This document shows positions 48,901 to 54,900 of a stretch of 64,000 bases of DNA, piece by piece. The position numbers were made by a program, and so were the translations under genes. Position 1 is the stretch's first letter, and every line of letters starts with the position of its first letter. This stretch comes from Branchiostoma floridae (lineage: Eukaryota; Chordata; Leptocardii; Amphioxiformes; Branchiostomatidae). The stretch covers positions 903,910 to 967,909 of the forward strand of contig NC_049994.1 in the NCBI RefSeq assembly GCF_000003815.2, written 5' to 3'. The notes under the pieces are model-generated. The model worked only from the letters and a program-made list of their open reading frames with translations. It had not been told where the DNA came from and did not search any database.

Positions 48901-51900
48901 CCAGTGATCCTGTAATTACAATTAGTGGTGCGTACCTAAAGCCCAGACTTGGAATTGGCCAAGCCAAGTCCAGACTTGCAAAAAGCTATCTGTCACTTAT
49001 ATTCCCTTTTTCTGTTCTAAACCATCTAAAACCTTCCATAGATAGTGAAATTTGCACTGGAAAAAGACAACAACAAAATTTGTGTTTACACTGGCTGGAC
49101 ATACTCATCAACAGGACAACACTTGTTTGAAAAAACAAACAAATACAAAATAATTTGCTGCATGATGAAAAGAAGCAATTCTCCCGCCATTCTGAATTTG
49201 CATGCAAGAGTATTGGTCATGCATGCACTGCAATGGAATCCTGCGCTGGGTGTCCCAGGAAGCTCTGAACACATGTCTAAAGACAACCATTACTGTAACA
49301 ACAACGATAGACAATAACAGTCGCACGACTATTTAACTGTTGAAGGTCTAAAGCGGGCCTTTGAGTTTGTGAAACATACATGTACTGTAATAGTACATAA
49401 TGTGTATGTACAGTGGTCATGCCAGTTTTTTTCCTGATAAAAAGTTCAGCCTGAGTGTAACCATTGCTACCTGAACATGCTATCAACATGGTTAATCTCA
49501 TGCACTGCAGGAAAGATTTGTGGTGACAAAATCTTATTGCGGCCATATTGAAACTACACGTAGCAAAATAGTAAAAACATCTGCGCAATGGTAGTTATTT
49601 AGTGTATTCAGAATTCAAAACAAACTGACACTACAGCTTGAAAAAAAACAACATATTGATACAACATGAATTATGTCTTTGCAAAGTTATAAAAATGCAA
49701 AATTTAAACAAATTAGATTCTGTAATATCCAAGACATTTTACTCACAACTTGGTTCAGCGTGTCCTCTAGCTCAGCTTCCTCTGGGTTTTTTGAGCTAAA
49801 ATATTATCATGACAAGAGTAAGAATCCATGGGCAATCTCCTCTGCAGACATAAAACAGTATGCAGCAACTTAAAGTACAAATAACTTGTTTCAATTCCAA
49901 GTTCCCACACTTTTAAGGTTGCTTAAAACGTGTAAAGGCCATGCAAAACAAACTGCAATTCTCGATTAAAACAAATGTCATAGCTGTGCACCATGTGCTG
50001 ACTGTTAAAGAGATTACCCGGGGCATACAGCTCATACACCTCTGAATTACACTTAGTAGTTGGAAGAGTGATAATAGAATCTGATGCCTAAGTATATTTG
50101 CAGCAAGGTTAGAGAATAAAAAATCATCACAATGTGTTAGACATGTGATACTTTTTCCATAAATGCCTTGGTTGCACTCCAAACACTGGAGCAGATTTGG
50201 CCAGAAACACAAACAAAATTTTGGCACTGAGACCGAAAAATAGCAAGGTTAATGTCAAATCCTGTATGTTATTCAGGGCTCGAAATTTTCCATTTCTAGT
50301 CCTCCTTGAGATATTTTCCAATCAAAGTTTTCATTTTAACCTGGTGTATCCCATAACGTCTTATATTGCTACCTAAATGCATGTATCTTTGTTTTATAAA
50401 GCCAGTCTGATCTTCGTGCATTATGGATGGTAGAAGGGGTTCTATTCGTAATGTTAGTGCCTTGCTTATAATCTTGGAGTCAACATTAAGTAGGCTAATT
50501 GAACGCCAGTTGTCAATGGTACTAAGGTCTGTTTCTTTTTTTTTTTAATAAAAAAACATAATCCCAATCCAATGTAAACTTTGAACACTGCTTGCACGAA
50601 CCCTTACCTTTTTTTCAGCAGTGAATCGCAGTACCTGGCCAGGAGTTCTGGAGACTTGCTGGATGACTGGACCATCCGTGTCACTGCATTGTTGTTGATG
50701 AATCTGCCACATGCCTGGACAAGTCAAAATCATCCCACCTGTTTACAGCAGCTGATAAATGCATCTACTGTAAACGCAGAAACTTTCGTGGTGGTTTAAT
50801 GGTCGCGTTTTTTGCGGTGGCCGCTTCACCGCAAATTTAAATTCACTGCGAACATTTTTCCATGGCAGTAAGAGACTACAGTGCATGGTGCTACGGTGAA
50901 CTTAAAAGCATCGCGGAAAGTCCCCTTTCCCAATACCGCGAAATTAAATCCCGCGAACTTAAATGCATTTACAGTATTTGACATGGAATCTTATCATATT
51001 ACACCAATTTTAAAGACAATGATTTTTGTATGACAGATTATCTGTTACACAGATTAGGACTCAAATATGGAATGTACTTGTTAGGTCTGATAGCAATGCC
51101 ACAAAAATAAGTGTTTATAATAAGTTACCTTATCTAATGATGCCACAAATCCAGAATCGTTGTTGAATGCTGTCAGTACTAAGGCATTGTACTTTTTGTG
51201 CACTTCCAGGATGGTTTGTACATACACTTTGGGATCCTGCAGGACAAGAATTCAGTTTAAAATAGTCAACAAGGGAAAAGGTCATGAGAACTGTGTAGGG
51301 TGTTTCCAAAACACCCTACATTTGGTGTCCTTCAACAACAAAAATTGTAGTAACATAAATTCCAACACATGAATCCAGTATTCAAATTTTCAAAATGTTA
51401 TCTTACATGGTGAGTAGATGTACTGAATGTTATCTTACATGGTGAGTAGATGAAGTGAATGTTATCTTACATGGTGAGTAGATATAGTGATGTTATCTTA
51501 CATGGTGAGTAGATGTAGTGAATGTTATCTTACATGGTGAGTAGGTGTAGTGATGTTATCTTACATGGTGAGTAGGTGTAGTGAATGTTATCTTAAAATG
51601 GTATGTAAATGTAGTGATGTTATCTTACATGGTGAGTAGGTGTAGTGATGTTATCTTACATGGTGAGTAGATGTAGTGATGTTATCTTACATGGTGAGTA
51701 GATGTAGTGATGTTATCTTACATGGTGAGTAGATGTAGTGATGTTATCTTACATGGTGAGTAAAGGTAGTGATGTTATCTTACATGATGAGTAAAGGTAG
51801 TGATGTTATCTTACATGGTGAGTAGATGTAGTGATGTTATATTACATGGTGAGTAGATGTAGTGATGTTATCTTACATGGTGAGTAAAGGTAGTGATGTT

Positions 51901-54900
51901 AAATTACATGGTGAGTAGGTGTAGTGATGTTATTTTACATGGTGAGTAGGTGTAGTGATGTTATCTAACATGGTGAGTAGGTGTAGTGATGTTATCTTAC
52001 ATGATGAGTAGGTGTAGTGAATGTTATCTTACATGGTGAGTAAAGGTAGTGATGTTATCTTACATGGTGAGTAAAGGTAGTGATGTTATCTTACATGGTG
52101 AGTAAAGGTAGTGAATGTTATCTTACAAGATGAGTAGGTGTAGTGAATGTTATCTTACATGGTGAGTAGATGTAGTGATGTTATCTTACATGGTGAGTAA
52201 AGGTAGTGATGTTATCTTACATGGTGAGTAGATGTAGTGATGTTATCTTACATGATGAGTAAAGGTAGTGATGTTATCTTACATGGTGAGTAGGTGTAGT
52301 GATGTTATTTTACATGGTGAGTAGGTGCAGTGATGTTATCTAACATGGTGAGTAGGTGTAGTGATGTTATCTTACATGATGAGTAGGTGTAGTGAATGTT
52401 ATCTTACATGGTGAGTAAAGGTAGTGATGTTATCTTACATGGTGAGTAGGTGTAGTGAATGTTATCTTACATGGTGAGTAAAGGTAGTGATGTTATCTTA
52501 CATGGTGAGTAGGTGTAGTGGTGTTATCTTACATGGTGAGTAGGTGTAGTGATGTTATCTTACATGGTTAGTAGATGTAGTGATGTTATCTTACATGGTG
52601 AGTAAAGGTAGTGATGTTATCTTACATGGTGAGTAGATGTAGTGATGTTATCTTACATAATGAGTAAAGGTAGTGATGTTATCTTACATGGTGAGTAGGT
52701 GTAGTGATGTTATTTTACATGGTGAGTAGGTGCAGTGATGTTATCGTACATGGTGAGTAGGTGTAGTGATGTTATCTTACATGATGAGTAGGTGTAGTGA
52801 ATGTTATCTTACATGGTGAGTAAAGGTAGAGATGTTATCTTACATGGTGAGTAGGTGTAGTGAATGTTATCTTACATGGTGAGTAAAGGTAGTGATGTTA
52901 TCTTATATGGTGAGTAGGTGTAGTGGTGTTATCTTACATGGTGAGTAGGTGTAGTGATGTTATCTTACATAGTGAGTAAAGGTAGTGATGTTATCTTACA
53001 TGGTGAGTAAAGGTAGTGATGTTATCTTACATGGTGAGTAAAGGTAGTGATGTTATCTTACATGGTGAGTAGGTGTAGTGATGTTATCGTACATGGTGAG
53101 AAGGTGTAGTGATGTTATCTTACATGGTGAGTAGGTGTAGTGATGTTATCGTACATGGTGAGTAGGTGTAGTGAATGTTATCTTACATGGTGAGTAAAGG
53201 TAGTGATGTTATCTTACATGGTGAGTAGGTGTAGTGATATTATCTTACATGATGAGTAGGTGTAGTGAATGTTATCTTACATGGTGAGTAAAGGTAGTGA
53301 TGTTATCTTACATGGTGAGTAGGTGTAGTGATATTATCTTACATGGTGAGAAGGTGTAGTGATGTTATCTTACATGGTGAGAAGGTGTGGTGATGTTATC
53401 TTACATGGTGAGTAGGTGTAGTGATGTTATCGTACATGGTGAGAAGGTGTAGTGATGTTATCTTACATTGACAGCAGTCTCCCCACACTTCTCTATTGCT
53501 GCCAGGCCTTGGTTGTGGATGTGCTGTTCCAGCAGGTTTCTCAACTCCCCTAGTCCATCCTGAATCCTGGATACCAGACTGTACATCCTGCCCAGATCTG
53601 ACACATTCAACACATAAATAATGGACATCATCAACAACAATCAACAAATTTGAAATATATAAAGGACAAATGGGGTGACAAGTTCTACATAATACAGCCA
53701 CGACTAACTACAGACTAACAAGGTTCTTTGTACACAACCAAGATGGTGGTTTATTCAACAAACATTTCCGCTACCATCTGCCACCTTCCTCAGGGCAATT
53801 CTCACTGTTACATCGCACTGCAACATCAGGGGGATCTATTATATAGAAGCATTTGCACCAACCCTATGAAATCCCTATGAGTATTATGTGATACGCACAA
53901 ATCACTATGCGAAAACGCACAAATCTTATGAAAATCACATGACTTACTACACGAAACGCGGCCAGCCACTATGTTGGGAGAAGGCATGATTTTGAACGTT
54001 TCTACCCATGATATTTTAAGGAACGGAAAAGACATATACCATCACGAAGATGTATTTGATAGCCTGTGAGCTACTCTTTTGCTTAATTTCATTTCGTAAC
54101 AATGATAACAGTGCAACAATTGTCATCTACTTCTACAGAATGTGATCCCAAAGATGACAGAGTGACAGCCTTCAAAATGCTGGTTGAATAAAACAATTGG
54201 TTGTGTACAAAGAATCTTGTTATTCAGTGACGTATCAAAGTTAACGGACAAAACCATTCACAGAAGGAAGATAATTATTACCTTCATTTTTGTCGGCATC
54301 CAAGAGATTTTGGAACTCTGCGTGGAAGATTTCCAGGTGCTTCTCTATGAGCACATGTTCACACTTCTTGGCCAACTCATCATGTGTGCTCTCATGTAGG
54401 TATACTTGCACCCTTCTTTGTTCTTCTTGTAAACGTTGCTCTGCCTAAACAAGAGAGAAGATTCTGATCGCACCTCACAACTATACCTAAACTGACATGG
54501 GCTGAATTCATCCAGAATAGCTTCCCTGATAGCTTCCCTTAAAGGCTTAACTCGATAATGTATGTATGTATGTAGCTTCCCTGACGTAAATGTCCAAGAC
54601 TCCAAATTAGGACTCATTTTCTCAGTATCATTTATCTGTCAATTTATGAAAACTTTCTATTTTCTATTGATGGACAATCCTAGTTAACTACAATCAAAAA
54701 TACCATTCTGTAATTTTGACAGAATTGGTATATTTGATGTGAAAAAAAAATAAAACAGGATGACACCAGGAGGTGAGAAGGAGTTTGCCAGATGATGGAA
54801 AAATAATTGTGGTGGAGCAGACCTCCAGAACAGATACTGGAGAGCCTCATGCTAAGTTTAACTGCAGTATACATAATACAGGAAATGTCCAAAAGTTGCC

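Follow-up and report, generated by a model that had tools for sequence, protein, structure and literature searches.

Results

The CUL1 junction and the array that follows it

The window, a stretch of 64,000 nucleotides from Branchiostoma floridae, carries on its minus strand the gene for CUL1, the scaffold of the SCF ubiquitin ligase. Performing tblastn with a human CUL1 sequence, we anchored 19 CUL1 coding cores from 58677 down to 42920, all 19 of them open-reading and matching human CUL1, with 18 inferred introns between them. Exon 7 is the seventh coding exon of this model, whose numbering follows the anchored coding cores and leaves aside the start codon and 5′-UTR exons. Intron 7 (2230 bp) is the longest of the 18 inferred introns, and intron 16 measures 2105 bp. 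The features around intron 7 are as follows, in positions of the window.

53467 to 53597, minus strand: CUL1 coding exon 7, 131 bp, DLGRMYS...ETAVN (tblastn, 86% identity; junction VN/DPK ungapped against the PDB cullin-1)
53461 to 53466, minus strand: GTAAGA, the true 5′ splice site at which intron 7 and array unit 1 both begin (score 3.3, frequency matrix)
53458 to 53460, minus strand: in-frame TAA, intron bases 7-9, met by every transcript that skips the true donor (ETAVNVR, then stop)
51395 to 53466, minus strand: 31-bp minisatellite; 66 units are complete, 52 with a length of 31 bp and 14 with 32 bp, and one is a 12-bp partial unit; 64 further donor copies bear GT
51237 to 51394, minus strand: unique 3′ part of intron 7, acceptor CTGCAG (read from the sequence; the acceptor CAG ends at 51237)
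51129 to 51236, minus strand: CUL1 coding exon 8, DPKVYVQ...SLDK (tblastn, PDB alignment)

Joining exons 7 and 8 at the junction gives 79 residues, which match Pfam Cullin and align ungapped with a solved cullin-1 chain in the PDB (best E 4.2e-41). The weaker matches were to cullin-2 (from 1.8e-10), with cullin-5 and cullin-3 below that. An earlier, sequence-only reading had named CUL1 as the host gene and 53467 as the exon boundary, and the ungapped cullin-1 alignment across the junction bears this out. At the other end of exon 7, the Asp codon is split, its first G coming from exon 6, and the intron 6 acceptor ends at 53598. Since the protein is conserved across the junction, we infer that the first donor would be the one used for intron 7 splicing.

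On the minus strand, the exon end GAGACTGCTGTCAAT is followed directly by GTAAGATAACATCACTACAC. Exon 7 ends GTC AAT at 53467, and the array starts at intron base 1 (53466, the G of GTAAGA). TRF reports a period of 31 with 66.5 copies and 90% matches at 51395-53468, and a second period of 405 bp (about 13 units, 92% matches) covering the same interval. Segmentation by cyclic alignment yields 67 donor positions, namely the 66 full units and the 12-bp partial one, with 30 distinct full-unit types (31 with the partial unit). The array takes up 2072 bp of the intron, leaving 158 bp, and the G content of its RNA is 6.3%. TRF, the segmentation and the homology-backed junction together confirm the earlier proposal that the array begins at the first intron base after exon 7, in phase with the donor.

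We rejected a repeat dispersed in the window, because only 3 of 69 unit matches lie outside the array, each 11 bases long. A repeat that is a general trait of the CUL1 gene was likewise rejected: among 36 inferred splice-site neighbourhoods, that of donor 7 has 64 matches, those of acceptor 11 and donor 17 each have 2, and the other 33 match only themselves. Between 42000 and 59000 TRF gave 4 more arrays, each with an edge 53 to 409 bp off the nearest inferred splice site. No Rfam family reached the gathering score in 42000-60000.

Some other parts of the window deserve a record. At 28007-28094, an array of 2.9 copies of a 30-bp unit (100% matches) reads AAAAAG/GTATGAG on the minus strand, which is donor-like, its surroundings being judged by eye. 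A 23-bp x 2 perfect repeat at 26173-26219 contains the acceptor-like TTTTTCCAG (neighbouring exons judged by eye); inverted copies of the GGCCAAATA...GTGTGTTTTCTGTC stretch adjoin it within 26173-26330, perhaps as a small inverted-repeat element. The open frame at 11805-12455 on the minus strand reads like a putative ETS-domain transcription factor. Within 5555-5956, 100 N translate into a string of X and probably mark an assembly gap.

The true donor is one of many similar sites

A GT stands at the donor position of 65 of the 67 units (the last one partial). Exact GTAAGATAAC was found in 52/67 units and exact ATGTAAGATAAC in 51/67, so that the earlier statement of ATGTAAGATAAC in nearly every unit was overstated, although the in-phase copying of the donor holds. 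The same reading had placed the copies in the true donor's context; AT is indeed common at the junction, but the true site has AAT, whereas 50/67 units have CAT.

We scored the donors with a human frequency matrix and with the U1 end; the values are indicative only. The true donor AAT/GTAAGA scores 3.3 and ranks 11th of 18 inferred CUL1 donors, and the commonest copy, CAT/GTAAGA, scores 3.5. The per-unit scoring that the earlier reading had proposed places 50/66 copies at or above the true donor by this matrix. Predicted U1 pairing is -4.3 for the true donor and -4.4 for 50/67 units, with 13/67 weaker than -2. By the same matrix, 51 GTs in the 2072-bp array, the true donor included, reach or exceed the score of the true donor (24.6 per kb); elsewhere in the gene 18/970 GTs do so (1.3 per kb). 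Two inferred donors score very low on this scale, that of intron 1 at 58564 (-3.9) and that of intron 3 at 56578 (-2.7), both on the minus strand; the model may have misplaced them, or they are genuinely weak.

The predicted accessibility of the true donor (0.57) lies within the span of units 2-19 (0.44-0.80), giving it no clear advantage. A structured array RNA was rejected, with z -0.39 against shuffles for a 310-nt piece and z -0.06 for the end of exon 7 plus 200 nt. RNA structure therefore offers no explanation of donor choice: the 310-nt piece does not fold better than its shuffled versions, and openness does not clearly set the true donor apart.

On the plus strand at 51395-53468, the unit carries ATG/GTGAGT, with 51 exact copies among 350 plus-strand GTs; its score of 6.3 by the frequency matrix is above that of the sense donor. 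An antisense transcript across the array would meet dozens of good donors.

Every decoy leads to the same stop codon

Unit 1 continues AAT GTA AGA TAA in frame, so that any decoy adds two residues and then a stop. It had been supposed that decoys add multiples of about 31 nt and usually break the frame. Instead, use of any decoy would truncate CUL1 whatever the offset, because the in-frame TAA occupies intron bases 7-9. Decoy offsets are divisible by 3 in 24/66 cases, and frame-preserving decoy isoforms were rejected since the stop already lies in unit 1. The Asn before the read-through aligns with residue 361 of a full-length solved cullin-1. Nonsense-mediated decay would be expected to degrade the decoy transcripts.

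Unit variation records turnover up to the donor

The 6 donor-core columns of 31 hold 7/25 of the distinct variant types (p 0.31), neither depleted nor enriched, and 3/12 of the private variants. Counted as cells, which are not independent, variants make up 14/402 (3.5%) of the donor core and 101/1656 (6.1%) of the remaining columns. Columns 19-21, with widely shared variants, give 72 of these 101 non-core cells, and the remaining columns without them stand at about 2%. The donor core shows no clear sign that selection has either preserved or purged the decoy donors. The suggestion that the array acts as a U1 sink or splicing regulator thus gains no positive support from the 7/25 variant types in the donor core (p 0.31).

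Pairs of identical units are most frequent at a lag of 13 units (10/53), which agrees with the 405-bp period; the other 28 lags tried gave between 0 and 5. Six of the 12 private variants lie in units 60-66, on the intron side, and 1/12 in units 1-7 (binomial p 0.0007, for an interval picked after inspection). Units 1, 4 and 12 have the same sequence, and unit 1 is the one with the true donor; turnover or homogenisation therefore extends up to the donor.

Comparing the exon end with the unit end, we found matches at 6/10, 7/15, 7/20 and 12/31 bases, levels reached by 2.0, 6.0, 19.9 and 7.3%, respectively, of 1340 exon-internal control positions; the three longer comparisons say less than the first. 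The sequence-only reading had derived the array from tandem duplication of the first 31 intron bases. A duplication of the donor region is plausible, but these exon-end matches (6/10 to 12/31) do not establish that it was confined to the 31 intron bases, and the unit may or may not have taken in exon bases.

Discussion

Comparison with amphioxus mirages

The CUL1 array is most likely a new, long example of the amphioxus 'mirages', a link absent from the sequence-only reading. The excerpts of two reports describe mirages as tandem repeats of minisatellite type that sit where exon and intron meet, at the 5′ or the 3′ boundary, and carry splice signals in many of their units (PMC3087553, PMC3902484). 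As excerpted, they name Adh3 and the globins BflGb6 and BflGb9 (PMC3087553, PMC3902484), together with PGBD5 and troponin C (PMC3902484). Units are given as 10-72 bp in Adh3 and 150-160 bp in the globins, and the excerpted data suggest that regular splicing is undisturbed (PMC3087553, PMC3902484). The CUL1 array, likewise, touches a splice boundary, bears GT in 65/67 units and has a unit size (31 bp) within the minisatellite range given for mirages. By title among the matches listed, the amphioxus and Branchiostoma literature on minisatellites, mirages and tandem repeats contained no CUL1 repeats and no genome-wide mirage survey.

Some differences are evident from the same excerpts. CUL1 has 67 donor positions, against 6 and 3 units in two BflGb6 haplotypes. 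BflGb6 is described as evolving in concert, with boundary units escaping homogenisation, and Adh3 as showing length and somatic instability (PMC3087553, PMC3902484); in CUL1, the exon-side edge is undiverged and the intron-side edge is diverged. A mirage unit spans the boundary with exon bases; the CUL1 unit matches the exon end in part, as given above (6/10, 7/15, 7/20, 12/31; controls 2.0, 6.0, 19.9, 7.3%), and may or may not hold exon-derived bases.

Among other systems, genes within human segmental duplications carry internal tandem repeats that are, in the excerpt of their report, also minisatellites, averaging 30 bp and about 4 units, half of them in coding sequence, and that alter gene structure, sometimes via cryptic splice sites (PMC2812944). 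New introns are discussed in that excerpt, whereas the 66-unit CUL1 array sits in an existing intron (PMC2812944).

A probably tolerated array

We consider it likely that this is a mirage-type minisatellite, longer than the globin ones, with the first donor spliced and the array near neutral. The splice-donor region would have been duplicated in tandem, and the array would have grown as units were exchanged singly and in blocks of about 13, which would have lengthened intron 7 from perhaps <200 bp to 2.2 kb. By exon definition, the exon 7 acceptor would pair across the 131-nt exon with the adjoining 5′ splice site, letting the first donor win. Decoy transcripts would meet the unit 1 stop and be removed by nonsense-mediated decay, and the array would thereby be tolerated, close to neutral.

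This account is supported by the exact start of the array at the donor, by the homogenisation that unit 1 joins and the lag-13 pairs that fit the 405-bp period, and by the private variants concentrated at the intron-side end. The donor-core variant types, neither depleted nor enriched, support near-neutrality. The 19/19 open CUL1 cores and the array RNA, which has 6.3% G and of which a 310-nt piece gains nothing in folding over its shuffles, point the same way, as do the published mirages, whose excerpts suggest undisturbed splicing. Against it count the true donor, which has no advantage in score and no clear one in accessibility, and the undiverged exon-side edge, unlike the edges of BflGb6. 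Among equal donors in competition, the intron-proximal one is often preferred, and such a preference would predict trouble at this array.

Alternative readings

The donor might instead come from the array, if an intronic minisatellite spread to the exon and one unit became the donor. Unit 1 is indistinguishable from inner units and the exon-side homology is weak, as this origin would have it. However, a random placement of 2072 bp in 2230 bp starts at the donor in about 1 of 159 cases, a chance donor in the unit is needed besides, and splice-boundary repeats are reported, in the excerpts, from several amphioxus genes (PMC3087553, PMC3902484). We regard this as unlikely; being a statement on origin alone, it can go together with a neutral array, and its probability is therefore not exclusive of other readings.

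A regulatory role for the decoys appears quite unlikely. With many U1-binding sites, intron 7 would be removed late or detained, or a fraction of the transcripts would be diverted to truncation and decay, with the CUL1 level set by array length. The donor-like sites are dense (24.6 per kb by the frequency matrix) and every decoy yields a stop, but the donor core lacks a clear sign of preservation. The nearest parallel is the detained intron 4 of OGT, whose decoy exons with both splice sites are experimentally supported in the excerpted report (PMC12017769); with decoys of this kind, splicing would be expected to become constitutive once their 5′ splice sites are deleted or masked. Both introns hold extra 5′ splice sites, mostly unused in OGT (PMC12017769). 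The OGT-type decoys carry 3′ splice sites too (PMC12017769), whereas the CUL1 array is known from its sequence, in which the donor copies were examined. A decoy role of the OGT kind may be considered for CUL1 and is so far without positive support here.

On a further reading, the array would vary in length and, through its 64 extra GT donors, serve as a rheostat on CUL1, a longer array binding more U1, delaying or misdirecting intron 7 splicing and giving less full-length CUL1. We hold this to be very improbable. If it were true, inherited and somatic repeat changes would alter SCF dosage.

Inflation or collapse of the array through assembly error is scarcely credible: a draft-genome misassembly of the BflGb6 mirage is reported in the excerpts (PMC3087553, PMC3902484), but 30 distinct full-unit types and 405-bp copies only 92% alike do not fit simple inflation, though they would leave room for a collapse.

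Implications

As an amphioxus mirage, the CUL1 array would have far more units than the globin mirages of the excerpted reports (6 and 3). Decoy use would be easy to detect, since every decoy transcript shares one early stop. The locus may thus serve as a natural experiment in splice-site choice, setting one acceptor and one true donor against 50 copies that equal or exceed it in matrix score over about 2 kb of a highly conserved gene.
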